This document shows, piece by piece, positions 3,518-31,052 of a stretch of DNA of 64,000 bases. The stretch comes from Streptomyces sp. NBC_00490. Lineage in GTDB: Bacteria > Actinomycetota > Actinomycetes > Streptomycetales > Streptomycetaceae. The DNA lies in contig NZ_CP107869.1 in assembly GCF_036013645.1 (NCBI RefSeq), positions 1,302,001 through 1,366,000 of the forward strand, given 5' to 3'. The notes beneath the pieces are model-generated. The model was not told the DNA's origin. It made no database searches and saw only the letters and a list, made by a program, of their open reading frames with translations. Within the stretch, counting starts at the first letter, position 1, and each line of letters starts with the position of its first letter. The translations under genes were made by a program, and so were the position numbers.

Positions 3518-3565
3518 TACTCCGGACAAGGCTCCGTCCACGATGCGCGGTCACCGCCCGGACAG

Positions 3566-4396: not shown

Positions 4397-5917
4397 CTAC
4401 GCCGTCGTCAGCGGCAGCGCGGTGAAGGTGTGCCGCTCCCACAGCCGGCGTGAGAGCTCCTCCGGGTAGGCGGCGACCGTGGGTTCGGTGTCGAGGAGCC
4501 GGACGAGGCGGCGCTCGGGATCGTAGGCGGGCCAGCCCGGGTCGCCCGTCGTGGCGAACGCGGTCCAGGAGGAGCGGATGTGGGCGGAGAGGGCCTCGGT
4601 CTCGGGCGAGGGGGTGGGTCCGATCAGCATGGCGCCCAGACCGGTGCCGTCGAACACACCGAAGGTCAGGGGTACGTCCAGCCCGTGACAGGCGCCGAGT
4701 GCGCCGCCGTTCGCGGGGGCGGACCAGGTGAGGTCGTAGACGTGCGCCCGGCCGCCGCCGGCCACATGCGCCTGGGCCAGCCGCAGTGAGGGCATGCGGA
4801 ACAGCCAGTCGGACTGCACGAGTTCGAACAGGTACTCCGTGGAGGCGTCGGGGAAGGCCGCCCGGTAGGCCCGCTCGGCGTCCGGCGTCGGGCCGAACAG
4901 GCTCAGGGTCAGTGCGGCCAGTCCGTCGTCCACCCGGCCGAGCAGCCCGCCGAGCAGGAGGAAGAGGCGGTACTCGTCCCTGTTGTGCCCGGCGATCAGC
5001 TCCACGTCACGGGCGGCGCCGTCCGCGAGGGCCTCCCAGGGTGCGGTGGGCAGGACCTCGCCGTCGACGACGGGCGAGAAGGGGGTGGGAGTGAGGGCGA
5101 CGGCGCCCCAGCGAGGCACGTGTTCACGCATACGGCCGCTCAGCGCGGCCCCCGCCTCGGGAAGCTTGCGCGGGTCCACCCCGGCGAGGTCGGCCACGGT
5201 GGGCCGCAGCCCGATCCCGGCGGCCAGGGTCTGCGCGATGTCGGCGGCGAGCGCGTCCGAGAAGTACGTGCCCGGCACGCTCTGCGCGATGGCCCGCCGG
5301 AACAGCCCCCGCGCCCCCGGCATCGCCATCAGCGCGGCGATGGACCCCGCGCCCGCCGACTCACCGAAGACGGTGACCTGCTCCGGATCGCCTCCGAAGG
5401 CGGCGATGTTCTCGCGCACCCACTCCAGCGCCGCCACCTGGTCGAGCAGACCGCGGTTCGCGGGAGCGCCCTCGATCCGCAGGAAGCCCTCGATGCCGAC
5501 CCGGTAGTTCAGGGTGACCACGACGACCCCGCCCTCGCGCGCGAGCCGGCCACCGTCGTAGGCGGGGTCGTCGGAGGAGCCGAACTTGTAGGCGCCGCCG
5601 TAGATCCACACCATCACCGGGCGGCGTGCCACCGGGTCCGCGTCCGGCGTCCAGACGTTCACGGTGAGCCAGTCGTCACCGGCCGGAAGGGTCCCGGGAG
5701 CCTCGGGGCCGAACGGTTCCTGCGGTGGAGGCGGGCCGAACGCGAAGGCCTCCCGTACGCCGTCCCAGCGCTCCACCCGCCGCGGAGCCGCGAAGCGGGC
5801 CTCGCCCACGGGAGGCTGCGCGTACGGGATTCCGCGGAACACCGCCAGGGCACCCTCCCGCCGACCGCGTACCGCGCCCGCCGCCGTAGCGGCCTCCGGA
5901 TACTCGCTTGTGCTCAT
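4397..5917 (-). CDS. Type-B carboxylesterase / para-nitrobenzyl esterase
   Basis: A 506-residue alpha/beta hydrolase of the carboxylesterase type-B family. The oxyanion loop YGGAY (106-110), the nucleophile elbow GESAGAGS with Ser187, the conserved FRGIPYAQPPVGEARF start, and a C-terminal GACHGLDVPLTFG segment holding the catalytic His are all present. There is no signal peptide, so it is probably cytosolic. GAGGAG precedes the ATG. It lies 99 bases downstream of the AhpD-like gene on the same strand and may share its transcript. The substrate is unknown; the family hydrolyses diverse carboxylic esters. Confidence 0.9.
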   Translation of the reverse strand: MSTSEYPEAATAAGAVRGRREGALAVFRGIPYAQPPVGEARFAAPRRVERWDGVREAFAFGPPPPQEPFGPEAPGTLPAGDDWLTVNVWTPDADPVARRPVMVWIYGGAYKFGSSDDPAYDGGRLAREGGVVVVTLNYRVGIEGFLRIEGAPANRGLLDQVAALEWVRENIAAFGGDPEQVTVFGESAGAGSIAALMAMPGARGLFRRAIAQSVPGTYFSDALAADIAQTLAAGIGLRPTVADLAGVDPRKLPEAGAALSGRMREHVPRWGAVALTPTPFSPVVDGEVLPTAPWEALADGAARDVELIAGHNRDEYRLFLLLGGLLGRVDDGLAALTLSLFGPTPDAERAYRAAFPDASTEYLFELVQSDWLFRMPSLRLAQAHVAGGGRAHVYDLTWSAPANGGALGACHGLDVPLTFGVFDGTGLGAMLIGPTPSPETEALSAHIRSSWTAFATTGDPGWPAYDPERRLVRLLDTEPTVAAYPEELSRRLWERHTFTALPLTTA

Positions 5918-6016
5918 CGACGACTCCTCACCGGATCCATGTACTGGTGAAAACTAGTGCACCTGGCGAACATGGAACACCCCTCACCCGGAAAAGGCCT
6001 CCACCCGGCGGATCAC

Positions 6017-20188: not shown

Positions 20189-20217
20189 GGGACGTCCCCG
20201 GCACCGCCGGTTACCGT
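20189..20217 (+). promoter_or_regulatory. Promoter for a leaderless alanine leader peptide
   Basis: GGGACG (20189-20194), 17 bases, TACCGT (20212-20217), then 6 bases to the ATG at 20224. The TANNNT box at this distance predicts transcription starting at or next to the start codon. Confidence 0.5.
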
Positions 20218-20223
20218 GGATCC

Positions 20224-20292
20224 ATGGAGGTCATCGAGCACACCCACACCGCAGCCGCGCGAGCGACCAGCTCCCCGGCTGCCGACGCCTGA
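20224..20292 (+). CDS. Alanine-rich leader peptide of the alaS-like gene
   Basis: A 22-codon ORF ending in TGA, 106 bases upstream of the alaS-like gene. Seven of 22 residues are alanine. Three consecutive alanine codons (GCA GCC GCG, codons 10-12, 20251-20259) are followed by Ala14, Ala19, Ala20 and Ala22; the C-terminal part reads TSSPAADA. It is too short to be an enzyme, lies directly after a -10 box and is followed by mutually exclusive RNA pairings, as expected for a transcription-attenuation leader that senses alanyl-tRNA. Streptomyces proteins are already alanine-rich, so composition alone is weak evidence; the placement of the triplet inside RNA segment 1 is the stronger point. Confidence 0.55.
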   Translation: MEVIEHTHTAAARATSSPAADA

Positions 20293-28336: not shown

Positions 28337-29860
28337 TCAGTGCTGCTCCTGGAGGCGGGCGAAGAGTGGTTCCGTCTCCGGGAGGGTGCCGTCGACGGGG
28401 GTCACCCGGCGTCCGACGTGCTCCGCCGCGCCGGGGATGAAGGGCCGTAGCTCGTCGGCCAGGGCGCGGCATGCCGTGACCAGTGCGGCGAGGACCGCGT
28501 CGAGGCGTTCGGCGGCGTCGGTGTTGCCGTTCCGTTCCGCTCTGGCCAGTTCCCAGGGGCGGGTCGCGTCGATGCAGCGGTTGGCCTCCTCCACGATGTC
28601 CCAGACGGCGTCGGCGGCCCGGCGGAAGTCGAAGTCGGCCAGCGCGGCGTCGATGCGGCCGGGTGCCTCGCGGCATACGTCCAGCAGCGTCGCCACGGGG
28701 AACCGGTCCGTCCCCGGCGGGGGCACGGACCCGCCGCGGTAGCGGTGGACCATCGTCACGATCCGGTGGACCAGGTTGCCGAGGCCACCGGCGAAGTCGG
28801 CGTCGGCGCGGGCGGTCAGCCGCTCGGTGGTGAAGTCGGCGTCCCCGACCCGGGGGACGTCGCGCAGCAGCCACCAGCGGACGGCGTCCGTGCCGTAGTC
28901 GGCGGCGAGGGAGACGGGGTCGACGGCCGTCCCGTTTCCCGACTTGCTGATCTTCCGTCCGCCGACCGTCAGATAGTCGTGGACGAGGATGTCGGTGGGC
29001 AACGGCAGACCCGCCGACAGCAGCATGGCCGGCCAGTACACGGCGTGGAACCGGACGACGCCCTTGCCGACGAGGTGGACACGGCGCTCCCCGGCCGCCC
29101 ACCACCGCTCGTAGGCGGGGTCGTCGGTGCCGTAGCCGAGGCTGGTGACGTAGTTGCCCAGGGCGTCCCACCACACGTAGACGACCTGTTCGGGGTCGCC
29201 GGGGACGGGGATGCCCCAGCCGCGGGCGCGGGTGTGGGAGCGGGAGACGGAGAAGTCGTGCAGGCCGCCGGCGATGAGCGCGAGGACCTCGTTGCGGCGG
29301 GCGGCCGGCTCGATGCGCAGGGTGCCGTCGGTGATCAGTGCGTGGAGGCGGTCGGCGTACCGGGACAGCCGGAAGAACCAGTTCTCCTCCGCGACGAGCT
29401 GGGGTGCGATGCCGTGCTCGGCGCAGTTGCCGTCGACGAGTTCGTCGGGCGTGTAGAACTGCTCGCAGCCGACGCAGTACAGCCCCTCGTACTGCTTGCG
29501 GTACAGATCGCCCGCCTCCGCGCAGCGGCGCCACAGGCGCTCCACGCCGGTGCGGTGGCGGGGGTCGCTGCTGGTGCGGATGAAGTCGTCCAGCGACAGC
29601 GCCAGCGGGTCGCGCAGCGCGGCGAACGCGTCGGCGTTGCGGTCGACGAACTCCCGTACGTCGACGCCCTCGGCCTCCGCGGCGAGGACGTTCTTCAGGG
29701 AGTTGTCGTCCGTCCCGCTCAGCAGCCGCACCTGCCCGCCGCGCTGCCGGTGGTGCCGGGCCAGCGTGTCCGCCTGCACGAGCTCCAGGGCGAAGCCGAG
29801 GTGCGGTCGGGCGTTGACGTACGGAATGGTCGTGGTGATGTAGTGCCGTGGTCCGGTCAT
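28337..29860 (-). CDS. metG: Methionyl-tRNA synthetase
   Basis: A 507-residue class I synthetase. The nucleotide-binding motif is HLGF (20-23) rather than the usual HLGH, inside TIPYVNARPHLGFALE. KISKS (303-307) is intact. The zinc knuckle is Cys129, Cys132, Cys146 and His149. Anticodon-binding helices follow from about 350, with RPWELAR. There is no C-terminal dimerisation domain. AGGAGG precedes ATG 29860. The altered HIGH motif and moderate divergence suggest this could be a second, conditionally used MetRS. A Met-Met leader peptide and attenuator-like hairpin lie immediately upstream. Confidence 0.93.
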   Translation of the reverse strand: MTGPRHYITTTIPYVNARPHLGFALELVQADTLARHHRQRGGQVRLLSGTDDNSLKNVLAAEAEGVDVREFVDRNADAFAALRDPLALSLDDFIRTSSDPRHRTGVERLWRRCAEAGDLYRKQYEGLYCVGCEQFYTPDELVDGNCAEHGIAPQLVAEENWFFRLSRYADRLHALITDGTLRIEPAARRNEVLALIAGGLHDFSVSRSHTRARGWGIPVPGDPEQVVYVWWDALGNYVTSLGYGTDDPAYERWWAAGERRVHLVGKGVVRFHAVYWPAMLLSAGLPLPTDILVHDYLTVGGRKISKSGNGTAVDPVSLAADYGTDAVRWWLLRDVPRVGDADFTTERLTARADADFAGGLGNLVHRIVTMVHRYRGGSVPPPGTDRFPVATLLDVCREAPGRIDAALADFDFRRAADAVWDIVEEANRCIDATRPWELARAERNGNTDAAERLDAVLAALVTACRALADELRPFIPGAAEHVGRRVTPVDGTLPETEPLFARLQEQH

Positions 29861-29902
29861 CGGTCCTCCTACCGGCAACGGGACCTGATCCGCACAGCGT
29901 GA

Positions 29903-29922
29903 AGGCCCCGTTCCCGGGGCCT
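29903..29922 (-). terminator. GNRA-loop attenuator hairpin before metG
   Basis: On the minus strand AGGCCCCG (29922-29915) pairs perfectly with CGGGGCCT (29910-29903) around a GGAA tetraloop. It lies between the leader-peptide stop and the metG ribosome-binding site. There is no clear U-run after it. Confidence 0.6.
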
Positions 29923-29971
29923 CGGTTTCGGTGCGCGTGCGCGCTCAGCAGCCCCTGTGCGGGGGCATCAT
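29903..29971 (-). promoter_or_regulatory. Candidate ribosome-mediated attenuator (Met) for metG
   Basis: Two Met codons (29971-29966) are followed at once by segment 1 GCCCC (29966-29962), which pairs with segment 2 GGGGC (29955-29951) over a 6-base loop. Segment 2 can instead pair with GCCCC in segment 3 (29920-29916) plus one U-G. Segment 3 is the left arm of the hairpin 29922-29903. A ribosome waiting for Met-tRNA would cover segment 1, allow 2:3 and prevent the hairpin; a ribosome at the stop would cover segment 2 and allow it. Confidence 0.6.
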
Positions 29972-29998
29972 GCGGTGCTGAGGCGTAGGCGTGATCAT
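29945..29998 (-). CDS. Methionine leader peptide of metG
   Basis: A 17-residue ORF, MITPTPQHRMMPPHRGC, ending in TGA 84 bases before the metG start. Internal tandem methionines at codons 10-11 are rare in any sequence and are placed directly before the first arm of the RNA structure. A TACCCT -10 box ends 7 bases before its ATG and no Shine-Dalgarno site is seen, so translation is probably from a leaderless mRNA. This is a regulatory peptide by inference; no coding database entry was consulted. Confidence 0.6.
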   Translation of the reverse strand: MITPTPQHRMMPPHRGC

Positions 29999-30005
29999 GG
30001 GACGG

Positions 30006-30011
30006 AGGGTA
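30006..30011 (-). promoter_or_regulatory. -10 box for the metG leader transcript
   Basis: TACCCT on the minus strand, 7 bases upstream of the leader-peptide ATG at 29998. No convincing -35 at 16-18 bases. Confidence 0.45.
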
Positions 30012-30075
30012 GCAACGGGGTGCGTCACCGGGCATCCGGATTTACGGACAGCCCCGTTCGCTAAGGTCGGGCGCC

Positions 30076-30369
30076 ATGACGGTTCAACTGTGTGTGTTGC
30101 TCTGGGCCCGGCCGGGCGCCGCCGCCGCGCTGGCCGCGTACGAGGACAAGGTGCTGTCCCTGCTCGGCGAGCACGGCGGGCGGGTGGTGCAGCGGGCCCG
30201 GGCCGACGGACGCGAAGGCCGCCCCGACGAGATCCAGTTGATCGAGTTCGCCACGCAGGACGGGTACGACGGGTTCATGACGGACGGCCGTCGCACCGCG
30301 TTGGCCAACGAGCGTGACGCCGCCGTCGCGCGCACCGACCTCTACCCCGTCGAGCTGAGCCGGGCGTAG
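30076..30369 (+). CDS. DUF1330-like small protein
   Basis: A 97-residue dimeric alpha-beta barrel-type protein of the DUF1330/antibiotic-biosynthesis-monooxygenase-like group: VQLCVLLWARPGAAAALAAYEDKVLSLLGEHGGRVVQRAR and EIQLIEFATQDGYDGFMTDGRR. A TAAGGT box ends 8 bases before the ATG with no ribosome-binding site, again a possible leaderless start. It is divergent from the metG leader and overlaps the convergent nucleotidyltransferase by 28 bases. Biochemical role unknown. Confidence 0.78.
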   Translation: MTVQLCVLLWARPGAAAALAAYEDKVLSLLGEHGGRVVQRARADGREGRPDEIQLIEFATQDGYDGFMTDGRRTALANERDAAVARTDLYPVELSRA

Positions 30370-31052
30370 AAGTGGTCGCGGACGCGGTGCAGCCAAGCCT
30401 CGACCGCCGCCTCGTCGGGGTGGTCCGGCAACACCGTGCGGGTCTCGTCGAACGCGGTCTCGTAGTGCGCGAGCAGAGGGCGGGCCACTGAGGCGTCGGC
30501 GGCGACCCGTTCGCCGAACTCCCGGTATTCCTCGGGGTTCTCGACACGGATCGTCAGGTGGCCGGTGGCGTACAGCTCCAGACCCTGGTGGCACAGCCGC
30601 TTGAGGTGCCGGGCGTGCTTGGAGGTGCGTTTGCGGGTCTCCGCGGAGGAGGAGCGGTCGGCCCGGTTCTCGAGACGGCGGAACTGCTGGGTGGCGTAGC
30701 CGAGATAGGCGTCCCGGATGCGCTTGGCGCTCAGGAACGATGTGCGCAGGCCGATCAGTTCGTCGCCGAGAGGGGTGAGCACCTCGTACAACTCCGGTGG
30801 CAGCCAGACGAGTTCCATGGCGGTCGGGTTGCCGCCCAGAGCGAGCCGGCACCACTTCGCGGCCTCGTGCAGGGTGCGGTCCGGGGCCGTGCTGACGTGG
30901 GACTCCTTCGGCCCGTGGAGGCCGTGCAGGGACTCGGTGGGTGCGGCGAACATGCCGAGGCGGTCCACGTCGGAGCCCTCGTGGGCGAGGCCGTAGGCGG
31001 TGGAGCCGACGACGCCGGACAGCAGGACGTTCGGGACGGTCACGTCGGCCAC
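30342..31052 (-). CDS. Predicted nucleotidyltransferase (RlaP-like, DNA polymerase beta fold)
   Basis: A 236-residue protein of the predicted-nucleotidyltransferase family seen in bacteria and phages. The catalytic motif is GSTAYGLAHEGSDVDRLGMF, that is GS-x-D-x-D with both acidic residues present. It continues with EAAKWCRLALGGNPTAMELVWLP and a helical C-terminal half (AYLGYATQQFRRLE, TRKRTSKHARHLKRLCHQGLELYATG). Substrate unknown; related proteins are suggested to act on RNA ends. No toxin-antitoxin partner such as a HEPN gene is adjacent. Confidence 0.85.
   Translation of the reverse strand: MADVTVPNVLLSGVVGSTAYGLAHEGSDVDRLGMFAAPTESLHGLHGPKESHVSTAPDRTLHEAAKWCRLALGGNPTAMELVWLPPELYEVLTPLGDELIGLRTSFLSAKRIRDAYLGYATQQFRRLENRADRSSSAETRKRTSKHARHLKRLCHQGLELYATGHLTIRVENPEEYREFGERVAADASVARPLLAHYETAFDETRTVLPDHPDEAAVEAWLHRVRDHFYARLSSTG

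Follow-up and report, generated by a model that had tools for sequence, protein, structure and literature searches.

How the expression of metG2, a methionyl-tRNA synthetase (MetRS) gene on the minus strand of the window (the whole 64-kb stretch of DNA analysed), is adjusted to the supply of Met-tRNA is the question raised by the short ORF with tandem Met codons located just upstream of it. This leader is very probably a ribosome-mediated attenuator of metG2 which responds to charged elongator Met-tRNA, ribosome stalling and the switch in vivo being the steps that we infer. The proposed Met-tRNA sensing logic is well supported at the level of the leader sequences.

Direct reading of the minus strand (29998-29945) confirmed the predicted 17-codon ORF with tandem Met codons in front of the MetRS gene, which runs from ATG to TGA and encodes MITPTPQHRMMPPHRGC; in the ORF list the same frame is also open from a GTG (30028-29945). 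A -10-type box lies right before the leader start codon, as in leaderless genes, and judging from this box transcription probably starts at or next to 29998. All the strands of the predicted pairings 1:2, 2:3 and 3:4 were present in the window sequence (Table 1), including the hairpin 3:4, with a GGAA loop at 29914-29911 and a stem of 8 Watson-Crick pairs plus one G-U. Strands 2 and 3 are separated by a linker of 27 nt, and metG2 starts at 29860, 41 nt past strand 4. The free leader RNA was stabler than its shuffled versions (z -2.65, 0 of 200 shuffles as stable), and a consensus scan of 29700-30300 returned neither a sigma-70-type promoter nor a T-run terminator (0 and 0). Upstream of the leader and on the same strand, a gene for an RlaP-type nucleotidyltransferase was found (30342-31052; PF10127, RNA repair polymerase-beta family), with a small, weakly DUF1330-like gene between the two (30076-30369, plus strand).

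Table 1. Position of the metG2 leader elements and of the AlaRS-like element in the window.
Feature	Position	Strand	Remarks
Ala-rich leaderless-type leader ORF MEVIEHTHTAAARATSSPAADA	20224..20292	+	-10-type TACCGT at 20212-20217
Truncated AlaRS-like gene, 391 aa, PF01411	20399..21574	+	first 401 of 847 alaS-model positions
metG2, auxiliary methionyl-tRNA synthetase, 507 aa	28337..29860	-	
Shine-Dalgarno AGGAGG (29870-29865), overlapped by strand 6 GGACC (29866-29862)	29862..29870	-	
Strand 5 AGGTCCCG	29879..29886	-	candidate partner of strand 4 (8 pairs, one G-U) or strand 6
Strand 4 CGGGGCCTT	29902..29910	-	hairpin 3:4, terminator-like, without U-run
Strand 3 GAGGCCCCG	29915..29923	-	
Leader ORF MITPTPQHRMMPPHRGC	29945..29998	-	17 codons
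Strand 2 GGGGC	29951..29955	-	partner is strand 1 or strand 3
Strand 1 GCCCC	29962..29966	-	run-on from the tandem ATG codons
Tandem Met codons ATGATG	29966..29971	-	proposed stall site
-10-type box TACCCT	30006..30011	-	starts 13 nt before leader ATG

The distribution of the leader was studied in 87 loci, comprising the window, six loci from a search of 199 genomes and 80 relatives from a contig search (at least 80 exist); the relatives of metG2 in this set are 53-88% identical. When the 330 nt upstream were scanned for an ORF of 7-35 codons with TANNNT 12-13 nt before its start codon, a leaderless-type upstream ORF (uORF) was found in 75 of the 87 loci, in 74 of them with an internal Met codon and in 62 with Met-Met. 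The corresponding numbers were 6, 1 and 0 for 1172 control upstream regions of other long ORFs from the same loci, which include some antisense frames, and 181, 45 and 2 for 8700 first-order Markov sequences. A chance origin of the leader was ruled out by this survey and its controls. The leader is present in eight named actinobacterial families and in one Acidimicrobiales MAG; by the rules used it is absent from nine of the 87 loci (L008, L009, L067, L070, L100, L107, L108, L110 and L112), which include actinobacterial relatives such as Kutzneria. On an enzyme tree built by a quick method, three changes sufficed to account for the leader in the 78 rows that have it (17.7 on average after shuffling), and the distribution of the leader largely follows the enzyme clade.

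The 78 leaders consist of the 74 obtained by the -10 rule and four Met-Met ORFs with no such box (L065, L071, L081, L092). Met-Met was present in 66 of them; an internal Met codon was present in all 78, this being part of the calling rule. Met-Met is replaced by Met-Thr in L074, L076, L093, L097, L099, L102 and L103, by Met-Val in L048, by Met-Ser in L054, by Met-Arg in L104 and by Met-Ile in L105. Conservation of the leader peptide and its pairings in close relatives, on which the original prediction had been made to depend, was found, the exception being the close relative L005 with Thr-Met for Met-Met. Some variant leaders contain 3 to 6 internal Met codons (L080, L083, L084, L086, L088, L090, L096, L098, L101, L102); they belong to Frankia, Crossiella, Nocardiopsis and their kin, and by eye the Met codons of several lie inside the 1:2 loop. 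For the other MetRS type of the genus (39-43% identical), only one of 23 loci had a leaderless-type uORF containing an internal Met codon (L028, uORF MVTVSNRMGATPRGR, without Met-Met), and the same upstream scan gave no such uORF for the other MetRS of the window genome.

The helices were analysed in an alignment of 66 leaders from the Met codon to the end of 3:4; L073 was left out together with 11 Frankia-type leaders, whose 3:4 calls were unreliable and which were kept out of the alignment and of the swap test described below. In this alignment 88.8% of the cells were paired (84.4 in shuffled alignments), with 36 cells showing double-sided changes compared with a shuffled mean of 13.0. Eight pairs had double-sided changes, a number that 9 of 500 shuffles reached (shuffled mean 5.7). 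Sliding the partner along the alignment lowered pairing to 35-62%. An alignment-free swap test, in which each strand was paired with its own partner or with that of another group, was then applied to 67 leaders in 24 hand-assigned groups, roughly genera. The own partner was better in 23 of the 24 groups for 3:4 (p 1.2e-6) and in 16 for 1:2 (p 0.03). Pairing 2:3 showed no co-variation in this test (11 of 24, p 0.73), which fits its nearly invariant strands; in the Frankia-type leaders L090 and L096, strand 2 is GGCCTCC-like and by eye still matches GGAGGCC in strand 3. The unrelated pairings 3:5, 4:6, 3:6 and 2:5 gave no gain at the group level, and 1:4, 1:6 and 2:6 none in the row-level test. 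In seven new loci, with an approximate place for the start codon of L135, the own partner surpassed more than half of the 67 swaps in five for 1:2 and in six for 3:4. Thus, of the mutually exclusive conserved helices expected of a trp-type leader, 1:2 and 3:4 co-vary and 2:3 is conserved only. Loops and linkers vary among the loci.

The 66 leaders were used to build a covariance model, with which 394 genomes of the class were searched. The eight best matches (at least 36 bits) were all located before a relative of the window MetRS, so that strong matches belong to the metG2-type gene; judged by contig, two of the eight are training loci, the window among them, and six are not. Among 22 further matched loci, one lies before such a MetRS (L135, 24.6 bits), and for the other 21 no relative of the window MetRS was present within 3 kb. 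Below about 36 bits the model is unspecific, with 266 of the 394 genomes matching at E 0.1 or less; by eye, the weak matches resemble terminators or coding sequence.

The gene behind the leader had been taken for metG. It does encode a MetRS, and it is not the sole or main one, since the window genome carries another at 5.44 Mb with about 30% identity to metG2. A further MetRS was present in 42 of 47 genomes checked among the 80 from the contig search (tallied by eye; that of G210 is fragmented). Of 199 Streptomyces genomes, five, the window genome included, have the window-type gene with an identity of at least 74%, and two more have relatives that are 53% identical. As a second MetRS occurs in most genomes and the gene is rare in Streptomyces, metG2 is an auxiliary gene there, and its rarity fits a transferable one. 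A broken metG2 copy was also observed in G016, another genome of the genus (contig C20:1731-2741), in pieces 62 to 88% identical and with one internal TGA. Among the 14 neighbourhood clusters listed, several of which are antisense frames of metG2 itself, no neighbour had a fixed place in most loci; a transporter-like protein (by eye) is encoded near metG2 in seven loci of seven groups, at varying places.

The arrangement of the leader suggests the following mechanism. When Met-tRNA is plentiful, the ribosome would move past the two Met codons, reach the stop codon and cover strand 2, so that 3:4 would form and metG2 expression would be cut, by transcription termination and possibly also by a helix 5:6 masking the metG2 Shine-Dalgarno sequence. 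When Met-tRNA is scarce, through methionine shortage or inhibition of the main MetRS, the ribosome would stall on the Met codons and cover strand 1; pairing 2:3 would then form before strand 4 is made, 3:4 would be delayed and metG2 would be expressed. The footprint of a ribosome extends about 12 nt past its A site. In all 67 leaders, 3 to 7 nt separate the start of the C-rich strand 1 from the initial base of the first Met codon, and the stop codon lies at +24 in 33 and at +12 in 20 of 66 leaders. As in trp-type leaders, therefore, a short ORF carries codons of the regulated amino acid, and by sequence geometry, with the footprint just given, the Met codons and the stop codon are placed for covering strand 1 or strand 2. 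The sensor itself begins with Met, and severe starvation would be expected to hinder its own initiation.

Folding calculations agreed with one part of this mechanism. With strand 4 left out and strand 1 masked, the expected number of 2:3 pairs rose from 3.86 to 7.14, an increase seen in 67 of 67 leaders, and shuffled linkers gave 3.25. Equilibrium folding of the stalled, finishing and untranslated states was tried as a proof of the switch and rejected, the states not being separated: 3:4 formed to much the same extent whether the ribosome stood on the Met codons or at the stop codon (0.95 and 0.96, p 0.098), Shine-Dalgarno exposure was unchanged (0.31 and 0.30, p 0.19), and the window Shine-Dalgarno was predicted to be unpaired in each state. 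The switch would therefore have to be kinetic, depending on the order of folding, on which the switch of classical attenuators is likewise held to rest. The expectation that the leader acts exactly as in trp-type attenuation holds for its Met leader peptide, its exclusive pairings 1:2, 2:3 and 3:4 and the placement of its codons; it is less secure for the output step, as 3:4 lacks a canonical U-run and forms in every equilibrium state, and a further helix may involve the metG2 Shine-Dalgarno sequence.

For the step that follows 3:4, we lean towards termination as the main output and Shine-Dalgarno masking as the second, or both acting together. In the 8 nt after 3:4, T was enriched as might be the case for a weak terminator, with a frequency of 0.379; the remainder of the linker had 0.134, and the tails of intragenic hairpins had 0.142. 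The T run is interrupted, and TTT was found in these 8 nt in 7 of 67 leaders and not in the window. Hairpins between convergent genes showed no T enrichment (28 tails, T 0.134) and, being no better than intragenic ones, provide no positive control for terminator tails. The absence of a canonical U-run after 3:4 speaks for an output at translation initiation instead, in which 3:4 is no terminator and a relay of 1:2, 3:4 and 5:6 would be the off state and 2:3 and 4:5 the on state, with strand 6 lying in the Shine-Dalgarno sequence. For its helix 5:6, the strands of one leader paired better with each other than with those of another group (19 of 24, p 0.0018; 18 of 24, p 0.0025 for a wider search window), the sequences being very different, GGTCC/GGACC in the window, GGAAGCC/GGCTTCC in L006, CGTCTCC/GGAGACG in L071 and L093 and CGATCT/AGATCG in L092, and 4:5 was borderline (16 of 24, p 0.03). 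A MAFFT alignment of the stretch between strand 4 and the start codon put strand 5 in the wrong place for one group, and no counts were taken from it. The seven new loci left 5:6 neutral (3 of 7; 3 of 6 with the wider window, L135 being left out as its start codon was not located), 4:5 failed there (1 of 7), and stalling gave no gain in Shine-Dalgarno exposure at equilibrium, the window site being unpaired in every state. With the T enrichment added, a purely translational output is an option that we consider somewhat doubtful. A further reading dispenses with the switch: the uORF would act by translation coupling and Rho polarity only, the Met codons being a weak rheostat and the hairpins protecting the RNA. 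The consensus scan, which found no canonical terminator, is compatible with it, as are the published Streptomyces metL, thrL and trpL2 leaders, described in the available part of PMC8079986 as having no clear terminators or U-rich tails. Polarity alone needs no such pairing as the rise of 2:3 seen in every leader on masking strand 1, and the co-variation of 1:2 and 3:4, together with a strand 2 complementary to both its neighbours, makes it a rather improbable explanation.

That the leader region holds a metabolite riboswitch or a T-box instead of a peptide leader is highly improbable. The one observation in its favour comes from L100, a Thermomicrobiales MAG and thus a distant relative outside Actinobacteria, in which a T-box-like element (5700-5957; 77.4 bits, gathering score 93, E 3.3e-17) precedes a MetRS of the metG2 family. 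Neither the window nor 13 related loci gave an Rfam match at the gathering score, the Rfam searches revealed no T-box sequence with its stem I in the window, and near the leader there were only chance-level matches to unrelated families (E 0.52 and above); the variable loops and linkers also argue against it. For L107 and L110, T-boxes were searched for at the gathering score, with no match. The peptide leader might also serve plain feedback on the cell-wide supply of MetRS, whichever MetRS this is, and not an inducible spare. Consistent with this, the leader-bearing, window-type MetRS was the only one found in five of the 47 genomes (three Frankia, Crossiella and Actinorugispora, tallied by eye), whose leaders have between 4 and 6 internal Met codons. 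Against it stand the further MetRS of the other 42 genomes and the rarity of the gene in Streptomyces, where the five genomes at 74% identity or more are joined by the broken copy, and we regard plain feedback as a tenable, less favoured reading.

The window contains a second element of similar design, the Ala-rich leader ORF in front of a truncated AlaRS-like gene (Table 1), which lies 6.8 kb beyond the metG2 3' end (28337), in a genome with a full-length alaS elsewhere. By eye, MEVIEHTHTAAARATSSPAADA has an ARATSSP core in common with the S. lividans alaL peptide, given as MNVIGRNIFATARATSSPVAAA in the available part of PMC8079986. Relatives of the truncated gene with like leaders were found near metG2 in L033 and L034, and in L065 an AlaRS-like gene near metG2 has a similar Ala-rich ORF upstream (by eye), with no -10 box by the rule. 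A scan of the 64 kb on both strands for leaderless-type uORFs (ATG or GTG, 8-35 codons) yielded three in all, the leaders of metG2 and of the AlaRS-like gene (20224) and a third ORF at 3554 on the minus strand, MTAHRGRSLVRSTDSVKCGV. The most extended reading of the locus, which we put forward as speculative and rather unlikely in full, is a six-strand relay in which Met-tRNA charge would set 1:2 or 2:3, then 3:4 or 4:5 and finally the Shine-Dalgarno helix; inhibition of the main MetRS would induce a spare MetRS that is not hit, and with the truncated AlaRS this would constitute an inducible arsenal of spare synthetases.

Peptide leaders on synthetase genes, which the original prediction had held to be unusual, are known in Streptomyces. 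For leuS and trpS, attenuators had been predicted by 2005 in PMC1262725, a source whose available part reports no conserved RNA structures before methionine operons in Actinobacteria. RNA-seq of S. lividans TK24 placed leuL2, trpL2, alaL and thrL before leuS, trpS, alaS and thrS, with leuL2, trpL2 and thrL described as leaderless and thrL and trpL2 as having no U-rich stretch (PMC8079986, available part). These synthetase leaders resemble the metG2 leader in being short ORFs with cognate-amino-acid codons before a synthetase gene. None of the eight leaders in the S. lividans table of that part is on a MetRS gene; its methionine leader, metL, lies before the metNIQ importer and has a sequence unlike that of the window leader. 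What stands of the claim is that no leader peptide of a MetRS was found among the literature matches listed, which cover few subscription journals; this scope being partial, it is weak evidence of novelty.

An auxiliary tryptophanyl-tRNA synthetase of Streptomyces, presumably trpRS1 of S. coelicolor, is reportedly under ribosome-mediated attenuation. It is the closest case in biology, being likewise auxiliary, in Streptomyces and controlled in this way. TrpRS1 is resistant to indolmycin (PMC9437257, available part). It differs from metG2 in the amino acid and enzyme concerned, and resistance and regulation have been studied there, whereas metG2 is known from its sequence. A second MetRS of pneumococci is said to be tied to inhibitor sensitivity. 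Translational attenuators of the erm/cat type combine a leader ORF, a stalled ribosome and a Shine-Dalgarno sequence in an alternative helix, and the metG2 leader would resemble them if 5:6, which is partly supported, is real; their signal is an antibiotic on the ribosome, whereas that of the metG2 leader would be the charge of the codon's tRNA. T-box leaders (RF00230) would likewise sense tRNA charging before a MetRS gene, which the metG2 leader is proposed to sense by translation.

If the attenuator reading is true, MetRS would be added to the actinobacterial synthetases whose genes are under amino-acid leaders. It predicts that MetRS inhibitors should induce spare MetRS genes and, if this induction holds, the leader could be used as a reporter in searches for such inhibitors. 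A Met-codon sensor which itself starts with Met would also make the split between initiator and elongator Met-tRNA measurable. A short leader thus probably decides whether a spare MetRS is made, in a design conserved across several actinobacterial families.
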